From positions 1 through 8,727 of the forward strand of contig CAMLNE010000176.1 of the NCBI GenBank assembly GCA_946481265.1: 8,727 nt of DNA. The letters run 5' to 3'. This document shows positions 1 to 8,727 of this stretch, piece after piece. The stretch is from an uncultured Panacagrimonas sp. (GTDB lineage Bacteria; Pseudomonadota; Gammaproteobacteria; Nevskiales; Nevskiaceae). Numbering within the stretch: the stretch's first letter is position 1; each line of letters starts with the position of its first letter. Made by a program: the position numbers and the translations under genes. Below the pieces are notes generated by a model. It did not search any database, was not told where the DNA came from, and saw nothing but the letters and a program-made list of their open reading frames with translations.

Positions 1-1
1 G

Positions 2-1285
2 CTGGATGCGGCCCGCGACGAGACCCGCCTGCGCCGCGCCGAGAAGGACATCCGCTGGCTGCGCTTCTCCGGCCTGATCGGCTGGTTCGTGGTGTTGCAG
101 GGCCACGGCTACGATCTGGGCTTCACGCCGGTGTGGGCGATCTATACCGGCGGGGTGCTGTACGCGGCCTGGGCCCATATCCAGGCTGGGCGCTCGACGG
201 ACATCTACCGCACGGCGGTGGTCACCACCTTCGCCGACCCGGTGCTGGCCGGCATGATCTGCCTGGTCACGGGCGGCATCGACTCGGTGCTCTACCCCTT
301 CTTCTTCTTCACGCAGATGTCGGTCGCCATCCGCTTCGGCGTGCTCGAATCGATCGGCATTGCGTTCTTCAACTGCGTCGTGACCGTGGCGATCTACCTG
401 ATCGAGCCCTGGTACAACGGCCACGCGCATGGCTCCACACCGTTGATGCTCGGCACCAAACTGTTTCTGCTCGGATTCGCCGGGTTCCTGGGCATGATCA
501 TCGCGGAGTGGGCCCGCGCACACGCACGCCTGCTGATCGCGCATGCGCACTCGCTGGGCGAGGCGGGCGAGCGCTACCAGACGGTGCTGCGCCGCTTCGC
601 GCAGGTGCAGGAGGAGGAGCGCCGCAACATCGCCGCCGAGCTGCACGACCGCATGAGCGGGCACCTGTTCGGCCTGCGCCAGGGCCTCGAACAATGTCGC
701 GCCGGCCTGGACGATCGCCAGGCGCTGCGCCAGCGCCTGGACGAGCTCGAGGCCACCGTGCGCGCCTGCACGCATGACGTTCGCTCGATCATGAACGAGC
801 TGCGTCCCACGGTGCTCGACGAGCTCGGCTTCTACGAGGCGGCCAGCGAGCACCTTTCCCGACACGCGGAAACGGCGCCCTACCGGCTGGTGCGGCGCAT
901 CGATCCCGCGTTGCGGGACTGGCGTTCGCGGCAGGACGCGATGCTGTTCCGCCTGCTGCAGGAGGCGCTGTTGAACATCCAGAAGCACGCCCAGGCGGTC
1001 ACCGTCGAAGTGCTGCTCGAGCCGCAGGGCGACCAGGTGGTGCTGAGCATTTCCGACGACGGCCAGGGTTTCGATCCCGACAAGGTTCCGCTCGGCCACT
1101 ACGGCCTGATGACGATGCGCGAGCGGGCCGAGGCGGCTGGCGGCACCCTGCACGTGGACGCCGGAGGCAACCGGCGCGGGACGCGCATCGAGGTCAGGCT
1201 GCCGCGGAGCGAGCCGGGCGGACCCGCCAGCGCGCCGGCAAGCCGGCCTGGAAACGAACCGGGAGACGGTCGATGGGCAACGTGA
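2..1285 (+). CDS. Membrane sensor histidine kinase, NarX/DegS type (5' end outside window)
   Basis: Sensor kinase of a two-component system; by family it autophosphorylates a histidine and passes the phosphate to the response regulator encoded next. The frame is open from base 2, so the true start lies upstream; the GTG at 89 falls inside a hydrophobic segment and is not a believable start. The first ~170 visible residues form about six hydrophobic segments with short loops and no large periplasmic sensor domain, suggesting sensing in or near the membrane. A HisKA_3 dimerization domain follows, with an EEERRNIAAELHD box (histidine codon 644-646). The HATPase domain shows an N-box (QEALLNIQKHA, about 957-990), a DDGQGF G1 box (about 1057-1074) and a later GLMTMRERAEAAGG block. 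The usual glutamine five residues after the phospho-histidine is glycine here. The 3' end overlaps the regulator gene by 13 bases, implying translational coupling. The signal is unknown. Confidence 0.9.
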   Translation: MDAARDETRLRRAEKDIRWLRFSGLIGWFVVLQGHGYDLGFTPVWAIYTGGVLYAAWAHIQAGRSTDIYRTAVVTTFADPVLAGMICLVTGGIDSVLYPFFFFTQMSVAIRFGVLESIGIAFFNCVVTVAIYLIEPWYNGHAHGSTPLMLGTKLFLLGFAGFLGMIIAEWARAHARLLIAHAHSLGEAGERYQTVLRRFAQVQEEERRNIAAELHDRMSGHLFGLRQGLEQCRAGLDDRQALRQRLDELEATVRACTHDVRSIMNELRPTVLDELGFYEAASEHLSRHAETAPYRLVRRIDPALRDWRSRQDAMLFRLLQEALLNIQKHAQAVTVEVLLEPQGDQVVLSISDDGQGFDPDKVPLGHYGLMTMRERAEAAGGTLHVDAGGNRRGTRIEVRLPRSEPGGPASAPASRPGNEPGDGRWAT

Positions 1286-1923
1286 TCCGGGTGTTCCTGA
1301 TCGACGATCACCATGTCCTGCGCCAGGCCATCGCGCGCATGCTCGACCAGGAGACGGATATCACGGTGGTGGGGCAGGCCGGTGACGCCCGCAGCGGCAT
1401 CGCGGCGATGGAAGCCCTGCAGCCCTATCCGGAGATCGTGATCGTGGATCTCAAGATGCCGGGCCAGAGCGGCATGAGCGCGATCGTCGAGATCATGCAG
1501 AAGCATCCCGAGACGCGGATCATCGTCTTCACCATGTACGACAACCCCGGCTACGTGTGGAGCACGATGAACGCCGGGGCACGCGGCTACATCCTCAAGA
1601 GCGCGTCCGGCAGCGACCTGCTGCGCGCGGTGCGCTCGGTCGCCAATGGCGGCGCCTACCTGCAGGCGGAGATCACCATGCCGCTGCTCAGGCGCCTGGT
1701 GCAGGACGCGCGCGCGGCAGACGATCGCGGCACGCTGTCGGTACGCGAGATGCACATCCTCGAGGCGCTGGCGGAAGGGCTGAGCAACAAGATGATCGCC
1801 AAGTCGCTGTCGATCACCGAGGAGACCGTCAAGTCGCACCTCAAGAAGATCTACGAGAAGCTCGGCGCCGCCGACCGCGCGCATGCGGTTGCCATCGCCC
1901 TGCGCCAGCAGCTGCTCGGCTGA
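1273..1923 (+). CDS. NarL/FixJ-family DNA-binding response regulator
   Basis: A 216-residue response regulator of normal length for the family. The receiver domain (about residues 5-122) has the acidic pair D11-D12, phospho-acceptor D59 in VIVDLKMPG, T87 and K109 (YILKSAS), so all key phosphorylation residues are present. The C-terminal LuxR-type helix-turn-helix (about 153-216) contains LSVREMHILEALAEG and the recognition-helix region ITEETVKSHLKKIYEKL. The ATG is supported by GGGAG at 1261-1265 with a 7-base spacer, and the gene overlaps the kinase gene by 13 bases, so the two are almost certainly partners. The targets are not visible; the adjacent catabolic-looking genes are a plausible local regulon. 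As I recall, styrene degraders use a similar NarL-type pair, StyS/StyR, next to a flavin epoxidase operon, but I do not claim orthology. Confidence 0.93.
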   Translation: MGNVIRVFLIDDHHVLRQAIARMLDQETDITVVGQAGDARSGIAAMEALQPYPEIVIVDLKMPGQSGMSAIVEIMQKHPETRIIVFTMYDNPGYVWSTMNAGARGYILKSASGSDLLRAVRSVANGGAYLQAEITMPLLRRLVQDARAADDRGTLSVREMHILEALAEGLSNKMIAKSLSITEETVKSHLKKIYEKLGAADRAHAVAIALRQQLLG

Positions 1924-1930
1924 CGCGCGG

Positions 1931-1944
1931 CCGGCGTTCGCCGG
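1931..1944 (+). other. Short GC-rich hairpin just after the response regulator
   Basis: CCGGC and GCCGG flank a GTTC loop (the stem can be drawn as 6 bp with a 2-base loop), starting 8 bases after the regulator stop codon. The position fits a transcript end or pause, but no T-run follows, so this is not a convincing intrinsic terminator. The rest of the 244-base gap up to 2167 shows CGCATC repeats and a second small hairpin (1999-2016) but no recognisable promoter. Confidence 0.25.
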
Positions 1945-2167
1945 AAGGGATTCCCGCAGGGCGTGCAAGGCGCTCGATGTTCGGCGCATGCATCGCATCG
2001 CATCGCCGCGGATGCGCGGCCGGCAGCGCTGCGGATCGCGCACCCCCGCGGATCTTCCCCGCATCCCCCGAACGGGTCGGCGTCGCGCCTGATCCGCGTG
2101 ATATCCAGCGCCGCGTCCCGGTCGAACAATCCGCAGTCTCCGGATCCCGGTTCCATCGAGACGACGC

Positions 2168-2968
2168 ATGCGCATCGAAGACAAGTCCTACACCACCATC
2201 AGGTTCAGCCGGCAGGGCCGGATCCTGACCGCCACGCTGTCGCGGCCCGAGGCGATGAACGCGGTCAACGCCGCGATGCACGAGGAACTCTCGCGCCTGT
2301 TCTACGACCTGGCCGACGATGCCGAGTCGGACATCCTGGTGCTGACCGGCGAGGGCAAGGCCTTCTGCGCCGGTGGCGACCTGCTGTGGCTGCAGGAGGC
2401 GATCGACGATCCCGAGGTCTTCCTGCGCATGGGCGGTGAGGCCAAGCGCATCATCTTCGGCCAGCTCGAACTGGAAAAGCCGCTGATCTGCCGCCTCAAC
2501 GGCGCCGCCACGGGCCTGGGCGCCTCGCTCGCCCTGGGCTGCGACATGACCATCGCCAGTGGCAACGCCGTGATCGGCGATCCGCACGTCTCGGTGGGCC
2601 TGGTCGCGGGCGACGGCGGCGCAATCCTGTGGTCGCAGCTGGTCGGCTTTGCACGTGCCCGCGAGTACCTGTTCACCGGCAAGCTGGCCAAGGCCGAGGA
2701 GGCCGAGCGCATCGGCCTGATCAACCGCGTGGTGCCCATCGAGGAACTCGACGACGCCGTCTACGGCCTGGCGCGCGAACTCGCGGCGGGCGCCACCAAG
2801 GCGATCCGCTGGACCAAGATCGTCACCAACACGCCGCTCAAGGCGCTGGCGCACCAGCTGTTCGACATGGGCCTAGCCTACGAGAGCATGTCCAATGTCT
2901 CTGCCGATCACCAGGAGGCGGTCAACGCCTTCCGCGAGCGGCGCCGGCCGAAATTCACCGGGAAGTGA
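2168..2968 (+). CDS. Enoyl-CoA hydratase/isomerase (crotonase) family protein with atypical active site
   Basis: A 266-residue crotonase-fold protein; the family binds acyl-CoA thioesters and stabilises an enolate in an oxyanion hole. Visible landmarks are the N-terminal LSRPEAMNAVN strand-turn (24-34), the CoA/oxyanion loop KAFCAGGDL (64-72), the second oxyanion block NGAATGLGASLALGCD (111-126), the segment IGDPHVSVGLVAGDGG (136-151) and the C-terminal trimer region ending in FRERRRPKF. Aligned by eye with rat mitochondrial hydratase, catalytic Glu144 falls on S120 and Glu164 on H140. Classical syn-hydration is therefore doubtful, and isomerase, lyase, hydrolase or another crotonase chemistry is possible. 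D138, H140 and D149 are candidate catalytic residues. The ATG has only a weak ribosome site (GAG about 8 bases upstream) but lies at the expected N-terminus. It precedes the monooxygenase ORF by 118 bases and may share its pathway. The family call is firm; the reaction is not. Confidence 0.9.
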   Translation: MRIEDKSYTTIRFSRQGRILTATLSRPEAMNAVNAAMHEELSRLFYDLADDAESDILVLTGEGKAFCAGGDLLWLQEAIDDPEVFLRMGGEAKRIIFGQLELEKPLICRLNGAATGLGASLALGCDMTIASGNAVIGDPHVSVGLVAGDGGAILWSQLVGFARAREYLFTGKLAKAEEAERIGLINRVVPIEELDDAVYGLARELAAGATKAIRWTKIVTNTPLKALAHQLFDMGLAYESMSNVSADHQEAVNAFRERRRPKFTGK

Positions 2969-3003
2969 CCCGGATGCGCCCCGCGGCGCCTCGACCGGCT
3001 GCG

Positions 3004-3037
3004 GCCGGCCCCCTTATCGGGTGATAGGCGGGCCGGC
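3004..3037 (+). other. Long stem-loop between the crotonase gene and the reductase-monooxygenase ORF
   Basis: Perfect 8-base arms GCCGGCCC (3004-3011) and GGGCCGGC (3030-3037) enclose a second stem, CCT/AGG plus ATC/GAT with single-base bulges, capped by GGGT. This makes a nearly continuous 14-bp hairpin. No T-run follows, so it does not look like a normal intrinsic terminator. It ends 49 bases before the next start codon and could act in mRNA processing, stabilisation or attenuation within an operon. The structure is seen in the sequence; the function is inferred. Confidence 0.5.
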
Positions 3038-3069
3038 GATGCGGGTCGATCCTGCCCCCCTACTTTCCC

Positions 3070-3075
3070 AAGGAA
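3070..3075 (+). promoter_or_regulatory. Ribosome binding site deciding the start at 3087
   Basis: AAGGAA lies 11 bases before the ATG at 3087, where ferredoxin homology begins at once. In-frame ATGs at 2895 (inside the crotonase gene) and 3039 (just after the hairpin) lack such a site, so 3087 is preferred although the spacing is slightly long. Confidence 0.55.
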
Positions 3076-3086
3076 CGAAATCAGGC

Positions 3087-4757
3087 ATGGACCACGTTGT
3101 CACCGTGCGCTACCTGGGCGGGGCCGAACGCACCATGCGCGTGGCGGCCGACCAGACCCTGCTGGAAGCCGCCGAAGCCGCCGGCGTGCCGATCGTCAGC
3201 GAGTGCGAGAGCGGGGTCTGCGGCACCTGCGTGGCGGGCTGCACCAAGGGCCGCTACCAGATGGGGCGCACCGAAGGCCTGAGCGATGTCGAGCGCGAGA
3301 ACGGCAAGATCCTGACCTGCCAGACCCTGGTGGAGTCGGACTGCACCATCGAGCTGCAATACCCGCTCGACGACAACGCGGCGACCCTGGTCCTCGGCGA
3401 CGGCGTGGTGACAAGGGTGGAGCAGCTGTCGGCATCCACCGCGCTGCTGAGTATCGATGCCTCCGGCATCGGCCAGCGCATCGACTACCGGCCGGGGCAG
3501 TTCGCACAGCTGGAAGTGCCGGGTACCGGTGCCTGGCGCAGCTACTCCTACGCCAACCTCGCCAACGCCGACAACCGGCTCGAGTTCATCGTGCGCCTGC
3601 AGGCCACAGGTGCCATGTCGGATTATCTGCGCGAGCGGGCCAAGCCCGGCGACCGCATTGCGTTGCGTTGCAGCAAGGGCGACTTCCACCTGCGTCCGAT
3701 CGCGCGGCCGGTGGTGCTGATCGCCGGTGGCACCGGCCTGTCGGCGATTCTCGCGATGGCGCACAGCCTGCGCGGCGCCAGCCTGGCGCACCCGGTGACC
3801 TTGCTGTACGGCGCCACCCGCTACGAGGACCTGTGCAAGCTGGACGAGCTGGAGGCGCTGGCGCGGGAGCAGCCGCGCCTCGAGGTGCGCAGCATCATCG
3901 GCAGGGCCGATCCCCGCTGGAGCGGGCCGGTCGGCCTGGTGACCGATCTGCTCGGTGCCGCGGTGCCGGAAGACGGTGACCTCGACGTCTACCTGTGCGG
4001 GCCGGCGGCGATGGTCGATGCGACGCGCGCCTGGCTGAGCCAGGCGGGCCTGCACAGGGCCGGCATCTATTTCGAGAAGTTCGTGCCCACCGGCGTGCAG
4101 CGTTCGCGCGTGCCGCCGCAGCTGGACACCAAGGCCCTGGACCTGGACGCGGTCCAGCGCGCCGGGCGCGGCACCGCGGTCGTGATCGGTGGCAGCATCG
4201 CCGGCATCGCCGCAGCCAAGATTCTCACCGAGCGCTTCGACAAGATCATCGTGCTCGAGCAGGACGGTCCGCACCGCCGCAAGGAAGGGCGTCCGGGCGC
4301 TGCTCAGGGCTGGCACCTGCACCACCTGCTGACCGCCGGACAGATCGAACTCGAGCGCCTGTTCCCGGGGATCATCGACGACATGGTCCGCGAGGGCGCG
4401 TTCAAGGTGGACATGGCCGACCAGTACCGGCTGCGCCTGGCGGGCTCCTGGAAGAAGCAGTGCAAGAGCGACATCCGGATCGTCTGTGCGGGCCGTCCGC
4501 TGCTGGAATGGTGTGTCCGGCGCCGGCTCGACACCGAGCCCAAGGTCGATTTCCGCTACGACACGCAGATGCAGGACCTGGTCTACGACGCGCGCACGAA
4601 CACCGTGATCGGTGTGGCCGTGGATGCGGCCGAGGGACTGAGCGTGATCCCGGCCGAGTTCGTGGTGGATGCCTCGGGCAAGAACACGCGCCTGCCGGAG
4701 TTCCTCGAGCGCATGGGCATCGGCAGCCCCGAGCTGGAGCAGGACATCCTCAACTGA
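3087..4757 (+). CDS. [2Fe-2S] ferredoxin / ferredoxin reductase fused to N-terminal half of an FAD monooxygenase
   Basis: This 556-residue ORF encodes three modules. A plant-type [2Fe-2S] ferredoxin occupies about 1-92, with ligands C40, C45, C48 and C78 (C-x4-C-x2-C-x29-C). A BenC-like ferredoxin-NAD(P)+ reductase follows: FAD-binding RSYS at 151-154, the nucleotide-binding glycine motif GGTGLSA at 214-220, YLCGP at 302-306 and the terminal FEKF near 329-332. A linker (about 335-360) leads to a group-A-like flavoprotein monooxygenase start with the Rossmann motif VVIGGSIAG (365-373), then RPGAAQGWHLHHLL and GRPLLEW. The frame stops at TGA 4755-4757 inside the monooxygenase, before its second FAD motif (GD), which lies downstream in the same frame. 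The reductase half looks functional alone; the flavin hydroxylase half is incomplete without the next ORF. Expected role: NAD(P)H-driven oxygenation, possibly epoxidation, of a hydrophobic substrate. Alternative reading: one 835-codon gene with a nonsense mutation. Confidence 0.85.
   Translation: MDHVVTVRYLGGAERTMRVAADQTLLEAAEAAGVPIVSECESGVCGTCVAGCTKGRYQMGRTEGLSDVERENGKILTCQTLVESDCTIELQYPLDDNAATLVLGDGVVTRVEQLSASTALLSIDASGIGQRIDYRPGQFAQLEVPGTGAWRSYSYANLANADNRLEFIVRLQATGAMSDYLRERAKPGDRIALRCSKGDFHLRPIARPVVLIAGGTGLSAILAMAHSLRGASLAHPVTLLYGATRYEDLCKLDELEALAREQPRLEVRSIIGRADPRWSGPVGLVTDLLGAAVPEDGDLDVYLCGPAAMVDATRAWLSQAGLHRAGIYFEKFVPTGVQRSRVPPQLDTKALDLDAVQRAGRGTAVVIGGSIAGIAAAKILTERFDKIIVLEQDGPHRRKEGRPGAAQGWHLHHLLTAGQIELERLFPGIIDDMVREGAFKVDMADQYRLRLAGSWKKQCKSDIRIVCAGRPLLEWCVRRRLDTEPKVDFRYDTQMQDLVYDARTNTVIGVAVDAAEGLSVIPAEFVVDASGKNTRLPEFLERMGIGSPELEQDILN
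4755..4757 (+). other. In-frame TGA interrupting the monooxygenase
   Basis: The frame that starts at 3087 stays open from 4758 to 5591 without any other stop, and the protein after TGA (FYSSMYHHVPP onward) continues the monooxygenase fold. The codon would be residue 557. It lies just after the DASGKNTRLPEFLE block, next to the strand that in relatives I recall reads roughly D-L-x-Y-A-S/T-R. Other genes here (1273-1923, 2168-2968, 4770-5594) end in TGA, so general UGA reassignment is excluded. The base after TGA is T, which is not a context I associate with leaky reading. Confidence 0.85.
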
Positions 4758-4769
4758 TTCTACTCGAGC

Positions 4770-5594
4770 ATGTACCACCATGTGCCGCCCGAGCGGCAGT
4801 GGACCGACCGCGTCATGCAGATCTGCTATGCATACCGGCCCAACGAGCAGACCTACGCGGCGCAGTACTACATCGACAGCAGCCGCACGATCCTGTGCAC
4901 CTCGCTGATCGAGTACAACTGCTATTCGCCGCCGCGAAATGCGCAGGAGTTCCGCGAATTCGCCAAGCGCATGCAGTCGCCGCTGGTGGCCGAGAACATC
5001 GAGGGGTTGGAGCCGGCGTCACCGGTCTACAACTTCCGCAGTCCGCGCATGCAGCGCTATCACTACGAGAAGCTGCCGCACATGCCGAACGCGCTCGTGG
5101 CCATCGGCGACTCGTACACCAGCACCGATCCGGTCGCCGGCCTGGGCATGACCATCACGCTGCAGGAGGCCGCGCGACTGCGCGAGCTGCTGCAGGTCCA
5201 CGCGCCCACCAGCCCGGAACTGATCCGGCGCTATTACCGGGCGATCGCCAAGATCGGCGATCACGCCTGGTTCGTGGTGCGCGAACAGACGCTGCGCTTT
5301 CCCTGGGTCAAGGACGTGGAGAAGAAGCGGCCGTTCTACTTCCGCGCGCTCAACTGGTACATGGACAGGGTCACCGAGCTGGTGCACGACGACATCGACT
5401 CCTACCGGACCTTCCTCGCGGTGATCCATCTGGTGAAGCCGCCGTTCGCGCTGCTTACCCCGGTGATGATCACGCGCGTGATCGGCAAGTGGGCCTGGAC
5501 CCGGCTGCGCATGCGCAAGACGCTGATCCAGAGAAACTACCCTCCGACCCAGGAGCTGCCACCATCGGGCATGCCCGTGTCGCCACGGGCCTGA
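4770..5594 (+). CDS. C-terminal half of the FAD monooxygenase (separated by in-frame TGA)
   Basis: A 274-residue ORF from the first ATG after the interrupting TGA, in the same frame; homology actually resumes at 4758 (FYSS). It carries the second FAD-binding block of group-A-like flavoprotein monooxygenases, ALVAIGDSYTSTDPVAGLGMTITLQEA (as short motifs: GDS, DP, GLGM; aspartate codon 5109-5111), and before it the substrate-domain beta region with RYHYEKLPHMPN. The C-terminal ~100 residues include a hydrophobic stretch, FLAVIHLVKPPFALLTPV, that could touch a membrane or bind a lipophilic substrate. The ORF lacks the N-terminal Rossmann fold and has no ribosome site before ATG 4770 (upstream bases TTCTACTCGAGC). 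Independent expression would therefore need reinitiation 12 bases after the TGA. Either it is the second chain of a split enzyme or the distal part of an interrupted gene. Codon use resembles its neighbours and shows no decay. Confidence 0.75.
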   Translation: MYHHVPPERQWTDRVMQICYAYRPNEQTYAAQYYIDSSRTILCTSLIEYNCYSPPRNAQEFREFAKRMQSPLVAENIEGLEPASPVYNFRSPRMQRYHYEKLPHMPNALVAIGDSYTSTDPVAGLGMTITLQEAARLRELLQVHAPTSPELIRRYYRAIAKIGDHAWFVVREQTLRFPWVKDVEKKRPFYFRALNWYMDRVTELVHDDIDSYRTFLAVIHLVKPPFALLTPVMITRVIGKWAWTRLRMRKTLIQRNYPPTQELPPSGMPVSPRA

Positions 5595-5618
5595 CGCTGA
5601 TCCGACGCTGATCCGACG
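5593..5618 (+). repeat. 11-base tandem repeat at the end of the monooxygenase
   Basis: GACGCTGATCC occurs twice back to back (5593-5614), followed by a partial third unit, GACG. The first copy overlaps the TGA stop and a second in-frame TGA lies at 5598-5600. It is probably a local slippage duplication. The 65 bases between the stop and the next start otherwise show only the ribosome site. Confidence 0.7.
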
Positions 5619-5646
5619 TTCGAGAAATAGAAGACCCGAAAACAAT

Positions 5647-5652
5647 GGAGAG
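5647..5652 (+). promoter_or_regulatory. Ribosome binding site deciding the epoxide hydrolase start
   Basis: GGAGAG lies 7 bases before ATG 5660. The in-frame ATG at 5645 overlaps this site and has no good Shine-Dalgarno sequence of its own, so 5660 is preferred, shortening the protein from 356 to 351 residues. Confidence 0.65.
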
Positions 5653-5659
5653 CCGCACC

Positions 5660-6715
5660 ATGCCGCAGTGGACGCACCGGATGATCAACGCCAAGGGTGC
5701 CCGCATCCACGCCGTCGAACAGGGCGAAGGACCGCTGGTGATCCTCGTGCACGGTTTCCCCGAGTCCTGGTACTCGTGGCGGCACCAGATCCCGGCGCTC
5801 GCCGCGGCGGGCTACAAGGTCGTGGCGATCGATCAGCGCGGCTACGGACGTTCCTCGAAGTTCCGTGTGCAGGAGGCCTACCGCATCGGTCGCCTGGTCG
5901 ACGACATCGTCGGTGTCATCGACGCCTACGGCGTGGAAAAGGCCTTCGTGATCGGTCATGACTGGGGCGCCCCGGTGACCTGGACCTTCGCCTGGACACG
6001 CCCCGAGCGCTGCAGTGGCGTGGTCGGCGTCAGCGTGCCGTTCGCGGGTCGCGCGCTGATCGGCCTGCCCGGCTGTCCCTTCGGCGAAAAGCGGCCGCGC
6101 GACTACCACATCGAGCTGGCGGGCCCGGGCAAGGAGTTCTACCAGGATTATTTCGGCGCACAGGACGCGGTCATCACCGAGATCGAGGAAGACGTGCGCG
6201 GCTGGCTCAAGGGCCTGATGTGGACGGTGGCCGGCGAAGTGGGCGCGGCCTACGCAGCGGCGATGGCGGCGGCCGGAACGCCCGCACCGACCGGCGTGGA
6301 AGCCTTGCGCAACGGCCCGCTGTGCATGCCCAAGGGCGCACGCCTGAAGGACGCCTTCGTCTATCCCGAGCAGATGCCGGCCTGGCTGAGCGACGCGGAC
6401 CTGGATTTCTACGCCGACGAATTCGAGCGTTCCGGTTTCGGCGGGCCGCTGAGCTTCTATCACAACGTCGATGCCGGCTGGATGGATCTCGAGGGCATGG
6501 CCGGCAAACCGCTGACGCCACCGGCGCTGTTCATCGGAGGCAACTACGACGTGGGGACGGCCTGGGGCGAGGAGGCGATCGCGAAGGCGGAACAGCACAT
6601 GCCGAACTATCACGGCAGCCACATCGTGGACGGCAGCGGACACTGGATCCAGCAGGAATATCCGGAGCAAACCAACCGGCTGCTGATCGGTTTCCTGGAC
6701 AGCTTGAGGCGGTAG
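5660..6715 (+). CDS. Alpha/beta hydrolase, epoxide hydrolase type
   Basis: A 351-residue soluble alpha/beta-hydrolase; the family opens epoxides to vicinal diols through an aspartyl-ester intermediate. Seen: oxyanion motif HGFP at 31-34 followed by ESWYSWRHQ, DQRGYGRSS (58-66), nucleophile elbow GHDWG with D101, likely acid D297 in GGNYDVG, and catalytic H328 in GSGHWIQQEYP. The lid region holds candidate ring-opening tyrosines: Y161 or Y164 in FYQDYFG and Y267 in LSFYHN, the position of the WYRN-type motif in epoxide hydrolases. These tyrosines with HGxP favour an epoxide hydrolase over a haloalkane or fluoroacetate dehalogenase, which also use Asp and His. There is no signal peptide. It starts 65 bases after the monooxygenase frame and is followed by a terminator-like hairpin, so it may be the last gene of that transcript. 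It could hydrolyse the epoxide made by the upstream oxygenase; the substrate is unknown. Confidence 0.88.
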   Translation: MPQWTHRMINAKGARIHAVEQGEGPLVILVHGFPESWYSWRHQIPALAAAGYKVVAIDQRGYGRSSKFRVQEAYRIGRLVDDIVGVIDAYGVEKAFVIGHDWGAPVTWTFAWTRPERCSGVVGVSVPFAGRALIGLPGCPFGEKRPRDYHIELAGPGKEFYQDYFGAQDAVITEIEEDVRGWLKGLMWTVAGEVGAAYAAAMAAAGTPAPTGVEALRNGPLCMPKGARLKDAFVYPEQMPAWLSDADLDFYADEFERSGFGGPLSFYHNVDAGWMDLEGMAGKPLTPPALFIGGNYDVGTAWGEEAIAKAEQHMPNYHGSHIVDGSGHWIQQEYPEQTNRLLIGFLDSLRR

Positions 6716-6735
6716 GCGGGCAGTGAGGCAGAGGT

Positions 6736-6777
6736 CCCCCGAACGGTCGGACGCCCGACTAAAGACGGGGATATTTT
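6736..6777 (+). terminator. Putative intrinsic terminator after the epoxide hydrolase gene
   Basis: Outer arms CCCCG (6737-6741) and CGGGG (6766-6770) flank an inner stem GTCGG/CCGAC (6746-6750 and 6755-6759) with an ACGC loop. ATATTTT follows immediately at 6771-6777. It lies 21 bases after the hydrolase stop, a fitting place for the end of that transcript. The internal loop is asymmetric and the T-run is short, so the call is moderate. Confidence 0.45.
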
Positions 6778-6826
6778 CGTGTTTGCTTTTGTAGATTGAT
6801 ATGGTACCGTACAGATGTCATCGGTA
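6771..6826 (+). promoter_or_regulatory. AT-rich promoter-like patch with a spaced inverted repeat
   Basis: About 35 bases from 6771 are strikingly AT-rich against the surrounding GC-rich DNA and include TTGCTT (6783-6788) as a possible -35 element, but no good -10 hexamer is placed at the right distance. The patch ends in TACCG (6805-6809) and CGGTA (6822-6826), perfect 5-base arms 12 bases apart, which could be an operator for a dimeric repressor or activator. TGGTACCGTAC here recurs as TGGCACCGTAC at 7108-7118 (10 of 11 identical). A promoter for the DUF1329 gene is plausible, implying a leader of over 400 bases. Confidence 0.3.
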
Positions 6827-6893
6827 TCCGGCGGCGAGCACACGCTGATCACGGCGGGTCGCAGCACCTCTGGATGCAGGCACGAAGTAAAAA

Positions 6894-6939
6894 CGCATCG
6901 CGACAGTCGATGCGATCAAACAAGAGCCACCAAAGGCTC
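6894..6939 (+). other. Two consecutive hairpins in the leader upstream of the DUF1329 gene
   Basis: The first hairpin has perfect 7-base arms CGCATCG (6894-6900) and CGATGCG (6908-6914) around a 7-base loop. The second has perfect 5-base arms GAGCC (6924-6928) and GGCTC (6935-6939) around ACCAAA. An AGGAGG sequence (6951-6956) and an ATG (6962) follow shortly after. I recognise no known riboswitch or small RNA family here. Confidence 0.35.
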
Positions 6940-7204
6940 ATTGCGGTGCGAGGAGGGGTCAATGCTGGTTGTGCAGTGCAATAAGCGGTGCGTGCCATCC
7001 GTGCAGCCAGTCCCTGTCCGCGCCCATCGTGCTGGTGCGGCATCTGCATCCCCTGTCATCCGGTCCGGCTCTTTCCGCCGATCACTCCCTGCGTCTGCTG
7101 ATTCGTCTGGCACCGTACCTCTTGTGCGGGCTTCAGGTGTCTATGCCTATGGAGCGATCCGCGCAACGTCGGCGACTTCGGCGGGGCCCCGGCAGGCGGT
7201 GATC

Positions 7205-7221
7205 TCGAAACCGGTTTTCGA
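7205..7221. other. Inverted repeat upstream of the DUF1329 gene
   Basis: TCGAAA (7205-7210) and TTTCGA (7216-7221) flank CCGGT, with a GATC at each outer edge. It ends 72 bases before the start codon and could be an operator or an RNA hairpin. No regulator is identified. Confidence 0.35.
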
Positions 7222-7280
7222 TCAGCGGCGGCCGTCCCGGTTGTAAGGAAGTCCTCGGCGACCTAAACGCGGTATTTACT

Positions 7281-7285
7281 GGAGG
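7281..7285 (+). promoter_or_regulatory. Strong ribosome binding site of the DUF1329 gene
   Basis: GGAGG with an 8-base spacer to ATG 7294 is the clearest Shine-Dalgarno sequence in the window and fixes this start. Confidence 0.75.
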
Positions 7286-7293
7286 TTTCATCA

Positions 7294-8691
7294 ATGCGTA
7301 TCAGAAAGTACGACTTCGATTACTCGCGCCGGAAATTGATGGAGAAGGTGGCGCTCGGTCTTGGCGCCGGTGTCCTTGCTCCCACCTGGGAAACCATCGC
7401 CGCCACCGGTGAAGTGACCAAGGCCTATCCGGACGAGCTGACCTCGATCGAGCTGCAGACCAAGGGCAAGATCAAGGTGGGCGACACCATCGACGCGAAC
7501 AACGTCGAGCACGTCAAGCACCTGCTGGACCCGATCTACTTCAAGCAGATCTCGGAGATGGGCCGCAAGGTCAAGATCCGCGCTCCAACCAAGAACGTGT
7601 CCGAGCTGTTCCCGCACGCCTATTTCGAGGCCACCCTCAAGAACGCCGGCAAGGCGAAGTTCGACGAGACCGGCAACGTGGTGGAAGCGGCCACCGGTGG
7701 ACCGTGGATCGGCGGCAATCCGTTCGTGGACATCAAGACCGGCCAGGAAGGCATCGCCAACCTGACGCTGAGCTGGGGTCGCCACGATATGTCGCAGTAC
7801 GCCGTGCGCTCCTACTCGAACAACCCGGACGGCTCGCCGGCCTACACCTACGACCTCTACTGGACCGAGCTGAACACGACGGCCCGCACCGAGGGCGAGG
7901 CGGTGTTCGACGGCAAGTCGGACATGCTGCGCTACCAGAGCGTGTTCTTCACCGCGCCGCAGGAGCAGGCGGGCGCCTCGTTCCTGGTGCCCTGGTACTA
8001 CGACCAGCGCAAGTTCCCGGATATCTACGGCTACCTGCCGCAGTTCCGTCGCGTGCGCCAGTTCCCCGCCAACCAGCGCTTCGAGCCGATCGTGCCGGGT
8101 CTGTCGTTCTTCCTGTCCGACGCCTGGGGCGCGGGCGATCCGATGCTGACCTGGGGCAACACCAAGATCGTCGGCCGCGGTCCGCACCTGGGCGCATTGG
8201 GCGGCAACTTCAAGGGCAAGTCGCACGCCAACTGGGAAAACCAGTCCTGGCACGGCGGGCCGAAGGGCCGCACCTTCATGGAATACACGATGGAGCTCAT
8301 TCCGGAGTGCGTCCAGATCGAGTCCGAGCCCACCGGTTATCCGCGTGCGCCGGTCGGCAAGAAGAAGCTGTGGGTGGACGTACGCAACGGCATGCTCGTC
8401 GCCTACATCACCTTCGACCGCCGAGGCGAGCTGTGGAAGCAGGTCGACGCGGCGTTCGGCCCGCAGGTCGAGGGTGACTTCGTGAACAAGGACCGCCACG
8501 GCAAGCCGCACTGGTCCTGGACCAATGTGCACTTCCACGACATCCAGTCGGGCCGCATGGACCTGTTCAACCACTGCAAGCAGATCTCGGGTGGCTACAA
8601 GAGCCAGTACGAAGCCCCCGGCGGCAACGAGAAGGCCATCGTCGAGAAGTTCTGCACCCAGGCGGCGATCGCGCGTCTGGGCGCGGTGTAA
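7294..8691 (+). CDS. DUF1329 family exported protein
   Basis: A 465-residue protein matching my recollection of the DUF1329 family (about 450 residues; often annotated as outer-membrane lipoprotein-sorting-like). Family-like blocks include GGPWIGGNPF, NLTLSWGRHDMSQY, YDLYWTELNTTAR, PWYYDQRKFPDIYGYLPQF, RFPANQRFEPIVPG and AWGAGDPMLTWGN. The N-terminus carries SRRKLME (residues 11-17) followed by the hydrophobic VALGLGAGVLAP, resembling a twin-arginine export signal with cleavage perhaps near 36-37. There is no lipobox cysteine, so a lipoprotein is not indicated. Three cysteines (339, 428, 454) lie in the last third. The molecular function is not established; genes of this family are, to my knowledge, often next to DUF1302, YCF48-like and RND/MMPL genes in clusters for steroid or hydrocarbon use, which would lie beyond the right edge. 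It follows a long leader and has its own strong ribosome site, so it likely starts a separate transcript. Confidence 0.78.
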   Translation: MRIRKYDFDYSRRKLMEKVALGLGAGVLAPTWETIAATGEVTKAYPDELTSIELQTKGKIKVGDTIDANNVEHVKHLLDPIYFKQISEMGRKVKIRAPTKNVSELFPHAYFEATLKNAGKAKFDETGNVVEAATGGPWIGGNPFVDIKTGQEGIANLTLSWGRHDMSQYAVRSYSNNPDGSPAYTYDLYWTELNTTARTEGEAVFDGKSDMLRYQSVFFTAPQEQAGASFLVPWYYDQRKFPDIYGYLPQFRRVRQFPANQRFEPIVPGLSFFLSDAWGAGDPMLTWGNTKIVGRGPHLGALGGNFKGKSHANWENQSWHGGPKGRTFMEYTMELIPECVQIESEPTGYPRAPVGKKKLWVDVRNGMLVAYITFDRRGELWKQVDAAFGPQVEGDFVNKDRHGKPHWSWTNVHFHDIQSGRMDLFNHCKQISGGYKSQYEAPGGNEKAIVEKFCTQAAIARLGAV

Positions 8692-8727
8692 GAAGTCCGG
8701 CGCCAGGGACCAGTAGAAAGAAGCGTC

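Follow-up and report, generated by a model that had tools for sequence, protein, structure and literature searches.

Described relatives of the fused gene

The mel2 locus comprises Rv1936–1941 and has been described as specific to Mycobacterium marinum and M. tuberculosis (PMC5584760; this and the other papers below are cited for the parts of their text that were available). Within it, melF is Rv1936 (PMC6626058) and melH is Rv1938, or EphB (PMC11036813), from which gene order identifies MelG as Rv1937. In the 2007 mel2 paper, the domains that the legend to Figure 2 gives for mel2 include fer2, NAD, and FADred (PMC1793995), which we read, from legend and text, as belonging to MelG; a later paper describes Rv1937 as probably a monooxygenase with a [2Fe-2S] cluster (PMC7029489). 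Annotations call MelG an oxygenase of unknown reaction, and mel2 has so far been modeled on the lux genes. Here we analyze a gene of this kind in 8,727 nucleotides of DNA from an uncultured Panacagrimonas sp. of the Gammaproteobacteria (contig CAMLNE010000176.1, positions 1 to 8,727; hereafter, the window).

By domain order and family membership, the fused gene in the window is a MelG-type fusion. The first-pass annotation had taken the order of ferredoxin, reductase, and monooxygenase to be undescribed; the 2007 legend and the later description of Rv1937 correct this, as the fused architecture is already known as MelG. The gene and its downstream neighbor are arranged as follows:

3087..4757, forward strand: upstream open reading frame of the melG-type fusion, holding the reductase and the first 196 monooxygenase residues; 556 amino acids (aa), ending at an in-frame TGA
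3120..3332, forward strand: [2Fe-2S] ferredoxin domain (Fer2; Pfam, residues 12–82), with Cys 40, 45, 48, and 78
3405..3689, forward strand: reductase FAD domain (FAD_binding_6; Pfam, residues 107–201), with RSYS
3717..4028, forward strand: reductase NAD(P)H domain (NAD_binding_1; Pfam, residues 211–314), with AGGTGLSA and CGP
4086..4166, forward strand: linker between the modules, residues 334–360, with limits drawn by us
4167..5546, forward strand: flavin monooxygenase module, residues 361–820, Lsd18/MonCI-like by sequence and predicted fold, interrupted by a stop
4755..4757, forward strand: in-frame TGA within the monooxygenase, at residue 557 of the chain, aligned with Cys in most listed relatives
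4758..5594, forward strand: rest of the same frame, the C-terminal monooxygenase part, 278 aa, with its own stop TGA at 5592–5594
5645..6715, forward strand: alpha/beta-hydrolase epoxide hydrolase of the melH/ephB type, 356 aa, 569 bits to EphB (2zjf/2e3j)

Read from the ATG at 3087, Fer2, FAD_binding_6, and NAD_binding_1 all score far above their Pfam cut-offs, and a combined Pfam and motif check located every element that the first-pass annotation had named in this module: the four cysteines, RSYS (151–154), the AGGTGLSA glycine motif, and CGP (304–306). The same annotation had placed the reductase ahead of a complete flavin monooxygenase in one frame. That order stands; the monooxygenase frame is open apart from the TGA at 4755–4757, which splits it, and is thus neither complete nor continuous as written. 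In the structural model, residues 333–340 of the linker fall below 50 on the predicted local distance difference test (pLDDT).

Of 7,995 candidates scored in a search with the full-length protein, 398 reached E <= 0.001. The 120 relatives listed are 823–863 aa long, all carry the three reductase domains, keep the four Fer2 cysteines unchanged in the alignment (120/120), and hold the linker to 27–28 residues; their named sources are Mycobacterium/Mycolicibacterium, Panacagrimonas, Nevskia, Nevskiaceae, and Pseudonocardia. A genome scan added loci L001–L005 (a Lysobacteraceae-labeled bin, Mycobacterium barrassiae, Solimonas aquatica, a gammaproteobacterial bin, and Panacagrimonas perspica), the fused protein of P. 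perspica (L005) being 81% identical to that of the window. Mycobacterium-named rows among the listed relatives reach 65–69% identity over 96–100% of the query, and single-frame genome matches within the Mycobacterium genus 64–69%. The window protein therefore resembles MelG of mel2 in domain order, in length (~825–850 aa in the Mycobacterium rows seen), in identity, and in having MelH/EphB as the next gene.

The two settings differ in other respects. The window copy has an internal stop, and mel2 contains the luciferase-like MelF; the gammaproteobacterial loci examined carry a two-component system (present in the window, L001, L003, L004, L005, and L021). Of the mel2 arrangement, with melF before and melI–melK after, MelF was found in neither the window nor the five gammaproteobacterial loci within the flanks examined (0/6), and was found in L002, L017, L018, L019, and L020. 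The gene in the window is accordingly MelG-type, and its locus is not a mel2 locus.

The fusion across genomes and the internal TGA

If the two modules were always separate genes elsewhere, the arrangement in the window would be a local merger or an artifact. The genome surveys gave the opposite result. MelG was found in 34 of 198 sampled genomes of the M. barrassiae genus, as a single open frame in 33 (one of these matches, in G354, spans residues 2–654 only), and in 10 of 85 genomes of the Panacagrimonas order, with a single frame in all 10; in the Panacagrimonas class it was found in 2 of 274 sampled genomes. The sole split among the 44 MelG genomes, in G402, is a frame break within the linker, which also shows that the query can detect separate modules at this identity. 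G402 carries two mel2-like loci (L019 and L020), each with a broken MelG frame; because its second copy is itself broken into several frames, this genome says little about true gene separation. With 43 of the 44 in one frame across two bacterial groups, and with the listed relatives so uniform in length, the fusion is genuine rather than a product of chance, assembly, or local merger.

A search for stand-alone versions, with protein length limited to at most ~768 aa, gave 285 matches, of which 120 were listed. Those above 50% identity are mostly pieces of fused proteins (rows to P0178), though at least three rows (P0129, P0141, and P0150) could be true stand-alone proteins; these begin in linker-like sequence. 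Eighteen chosen stand-alone rows, at ~30% identity, form a separate side of an unrooted tree with support of 100/100. Two further proteins, P0159 and P0230, join C-terminal pieces of the MelG monooxygenase to an alpha/beta-hydrolase domain, as if MelG and MelH could have merged, a lost stop being the alternative. Among plasmids, a protein search yielded no single place that matched 80% of the query in any record, and a DNA search found 13 records matching 2–4% of it (five annotated benC, eight without annotation).

The TGA at 4755–4757 aligns with Cys in 118 of the 120 relatives and with Thr and Ala in the other two. We attribute it either to a nonsense mutation of recent date or to an error in the sequence. 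As written, the copy would yield the reductase with no more than part of the monooxygenase, and it is probable that this particular copy is broken in that way, its reductase product cut short and its C-terminal piece orphaned; this is compatible with any of the readings of function weighed below, and means that function must be inferred from relatives. The downstream piece is also stored as a separate 274-aa protein (P0148, on a contig of 6,803 bases and listed without sources), so the stop has been called in at least one stored contig. Intact relatives point the same way, as the fused frames of L001–L005 contain no internal stop, and P0003, on a contig of source "lgn", runs through uninterrupted while differing from the window reading only at the stop residue and one other. 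P0002 differs at the stop residue only; as it is listed as the protein encoded by the window, it was not counted as independent. The exact agreement of the remaining frame with P0002, and with P0003 bar one residue, suggests at the same time a break that is either recent or not real; the genes downstream are likewise intact.

Alignment of a TGA with Cys is the usual mark of Cys/selenocysteine exchange, and the codon might in principle be decoded as selenocysteine or another residue. We consider this very improbable. The near-identical P0003 carries Cys; TGA also ends the kinase, regulator, and hydratase genes in the window, and the fused frame itself, as an ordinary stop; and a hairpin 3' of the TGA is predicted in three of five relatives with Cys as well. 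SelB exceeded its family cut-off in none of the five relatives' genomes, with weaker matches in all five, as compared with 2 of 14 control genomes above the cut-off and 12 of 14 with weaker matches.

The reaction proposed for MelG

Pfam returned only weak, general matches on the monooxygenase part, and its identity therefore rests on comparison with solved structures. In sequence and predicted fold (the fold tested on P0002), it is closest to Lsd18 and MonCI, at 22–25% identity, and it shares with Lsd18/LasC and MonCI the R.G..Q..H.H and D(A/T)(S/T)G regions. Those enzymes stand alone at ~490–510 aa, lack a reductase, and act on polyketide polyenes, whereas the window module is fused. Squalene epoxidase, which is served by a separate reductase, is a much weaker match than Lsd18 or MonCI: on the C-terminal piece, the Pfam SE model scores 20.6 bits, just past its cut-off of 20.1, and the enzyme appears as a fold relative in Foldseek but outside the 50 rows of the other fold comparison.

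The reductase module, with 1krh as its best PDB match, shares with BenC/AntC the Fer2-FAD-NAD order, the Cys ligands, RxYS, the glycine motif, and CGP. Its scores of 299 of 402 bits for the NCBIfam AntC model and 271.9 of 430 bits for the other BenC/AntC equivalog are below the cut-offs, making it a reductase homologue rather than BenC or AntC. BenC-type reductases serve separate oxygenases, whereas the reductase in the window is fused to a flavin enzyme. In the fused enzyme StyA2B, the reductase is a flavin reductase at the opposite end, without an iron–sulfur cluster. StyA2B nevertheless resembles the window protein as a fusion of flavin epoxidase and reductase, being a natural fusion of styrene monooxygenase in which the epoxidase is joined to the reductase (PMC6165268).

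The likeness to polyether epoxidases, together with the position and co-occurrence that tie MelG in distant bacteria to epoxide hydrolases of two kinds, suggests a concrete, testable reaction. We favor, as probable, a route in which a flavin epoxidase is supplied with electrons from NADH by way of FAD and [2Fe-2S], and its epoxide product is then opened by MelH. NADH would reduce the FAD of the N-terminal reductase, and single electrons would travel via the [2Fe-2S] cluster to the monooxygenase FAD. The reduced monooxygenase flavin would then react with O2 to form a C4a-hydroperoxide, the form of O2 activation modeled for MonCI (PMC10560226), and a C=C bond of a hydrophobic, perhaps coenzyme A (CoA)-linked substrate would be epoxidized. 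MelH next door, or a limonene-1,2-epoxide-hydrolase (LEH)-type protein encoded nearby in relatives, would open the epoxide to a diol. For the fused reductase itself, a built-in electron chain to the monooxygenase flavin is the likeliest use.

Genomic association of MelG with epoxide hydrolases is consistent with this proposal. The match of the downstream gene to MelH/EphB spans residues 10–355 of 356, with HGFPESW and GHDWG present. MelH was matched in all 44 MelG genomes and is directly adjacent in 40. In the Mycobacterium genus, MelH occurs in exactly the 34 genomes that bear MelG, with a gap of 45–108 bases in 33 and of 602 bases in one with an early-ending MelG match; in the Panacagrimonas order, a MelH-level match occurs in 15 of 85 genomes, including all 10 with MelG, and lies 43–98 bases from MelG in 7 of the 10. 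The LEH-type protein (130 aa; Pfam LEH; 65.7 bits to PDB 5aif) was found in 31 genomes of these samples, 22 of the 198 from the Mycobacterium genus and 9 of the 85 from the order, always with MelG; the two lie no more than 11 kb apart in 19 of the former and no more than 12.4 kb apart in 8 of the latter. One of the 10 MelG genomes of the order is without LEH. The hypergeometric values computed for these co-occurrences take no account of kinship among the genomes.

An unlikely alternative is that the reductase half supplies another oxygenase while the monooxygenase draws its electrons straight from NAD(P)H, so that fusion does no more than keep the two together. Such an arrangement would fit the habit of BenC-type reductases, and the mycobacterial loci do hold a second oxygenase, MelF. 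Outside them, however, no MelF was found in the flanks examined, as given above, of the gammaproteobacterial loci or in the window, a single other oxygenase-type gene (PaaA_PaaC, in L004) appeared among the 10 neighbors tested with Pfam in L004 and L005, and the 27–28-residue linker is kept in all 120 relatives. Direct use of NADH or NADPH has precedent in MonCI, where an added flavin reductase raises yield by ~20% (PMC10560226). The first-pass view that such monooxygenases need no reductase is thus roughly right for the nearest solved relatives, and necessity alone does not explain the fused reductase.

That last point is one of several that weigh against a MelG–MelH epoxide pathway. The match to Lsd18, at ~25% identity, is remote, and the fold is shared, at lower Z, with p-hydroxybenzoate hydroxylase and the brominase Bmp2; both observations would also suit a monooxygenase whose product is not an epoxide (through aromatic hydroxylation, Baeyer–Villiger oxidation, or halogenation), with MelH acting on some other epoxide, a reading we regard as improbable. 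The oxidative-stress phenotype seen for melH was absent from a transposon mutant of melG (PMC11036813), a result that does not favor a tight two-step pathway under those conditions. The 2024 MelH paper reports, in the part available, a preference for epoxides with one aromatic substituent; as this gives no pointer to a steroid or an isoprenoid, the substrate class is left wide. In the Panacagrimonas order, MelH lies ~18 kb from MelG in 2 of 10 genomes and on another contig in 1 of 10, and 5 genomes have a MelH-level match without MelG; LEH is missing from 12 of the 34 MelG genomes of the Mycobacterium genus. The available open-licence literature yielded no report of electron transfer, epoxidation, or a substrate for MelG.

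The MelG–MelH–LEH association extends across phyla while the rest of the neighborhood does not. LEH is 81% identical between Panacagrimonas and M. barrassiae, whereas the acyl-CoA dehydrogenases and ligase of L004, the short-chain dehydrogenase/reductase of L005, and the window hydratase are 27.5–35.3% identical to mycobacterial neighbors of the same families. As MelG, MelH, and LEH are shared while other neighbors diverge, these three constitute the cross-phylum part. At roughly even odds, in our judgment, MelG may be the first flavin epoxidase of the group-A type to carry a [2Fe-2S] reductase of its own, and the cross-phylum core of mel2 a MelG/MelH/LEH unit for making and opening epoxides rather than a bioluminescence-like system, with the luciferase-like MelF and the flavin genes as lineage-specific additions in mycobacteria. 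The epoxidase assignment, and the epoxide-pathway rather than lux-like look of the part of mel2 shared across phyla, are what is new here; the assignment would also give MelH a candidate epoxide source. Within the available open-licence literature, no account was found of MelG as an epoxidase or of MelG in Nevskiales (PMC10961586, which holds "melg" and "nevskia" once, was left aside). The 2024 MelH paper uses neither "monooxygenase" nor "epoxidase" in its main text and hence seems not to have paired MelG, as maker of an epoxide, with MelH as its opener.

Two suggestions as to substrate were set aside. Support for a steroid is indirect, from the Mce3R regulon (PMC11667970) and from paired acyl-CoA dehydrogenases in four of five gammaproteobacterial loci, a pair that is not closely orthologous to the mycobacterial one. 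For a link to rubber degradation in Solimonas and Nevskiales, the available part of PMC10837239 held nothing bearing on the fused enzyme.

Neighboring genes

The remaining genes of the window are:

2..1285, forward strand: HisKA_3 sensor kinase (Pfam), running off the left edge; a conserved neighbor
1273..1923, forward strand: LuxR-type response regulator, 96% identical to the Panacagrimonas copy
2168..2968, forward strand: enoyl-CoA hydratase/isomerase family gene, conserved in four of five gammaproteobacterial loci
7294..8691, forward strand: DUF1329 protein, 88% identical to that of Panacagrimonas; among L001–L005, present only in L005

The identities of the regulator and the DUF1329 protein to their Panacagrimonas counterparts make a relative of that genus the most likely source of the window. 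LEH is absent from the window. In L003, L004, and L005 it sits just upstream of the kinase, and an equivalent here would fall past the left edge. Gene calls in the relatives' loci were GC3-based, the DNA being GC-rich.

In the Mycobacterium locus L002, a double TetR gene stands in place of the kinase and regulator. Both L002 (3677–8565) and L004 (5024–9904) have genes for an acyl-CoA ligase, an enoyl-CoA hydratase, and a pair of adjacent acyl-CoA dehydrogenases around MelG; at 27–32% identity between the compared pairs, these appear to be the same enzyme classes separately recruited. Three genomes (G296, G315, and G397) carry a second EphB-type gene a few kilobases from the first, on the opposite strand. 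In L005 (14622–22508), the Panacagrimonas DUF1329 gene is accompanied by BNR, DUF1302, a second DUF1329, and an MMPL gene, a set that perhaps, as a guess, serves transport of a hydrophobic substrate.

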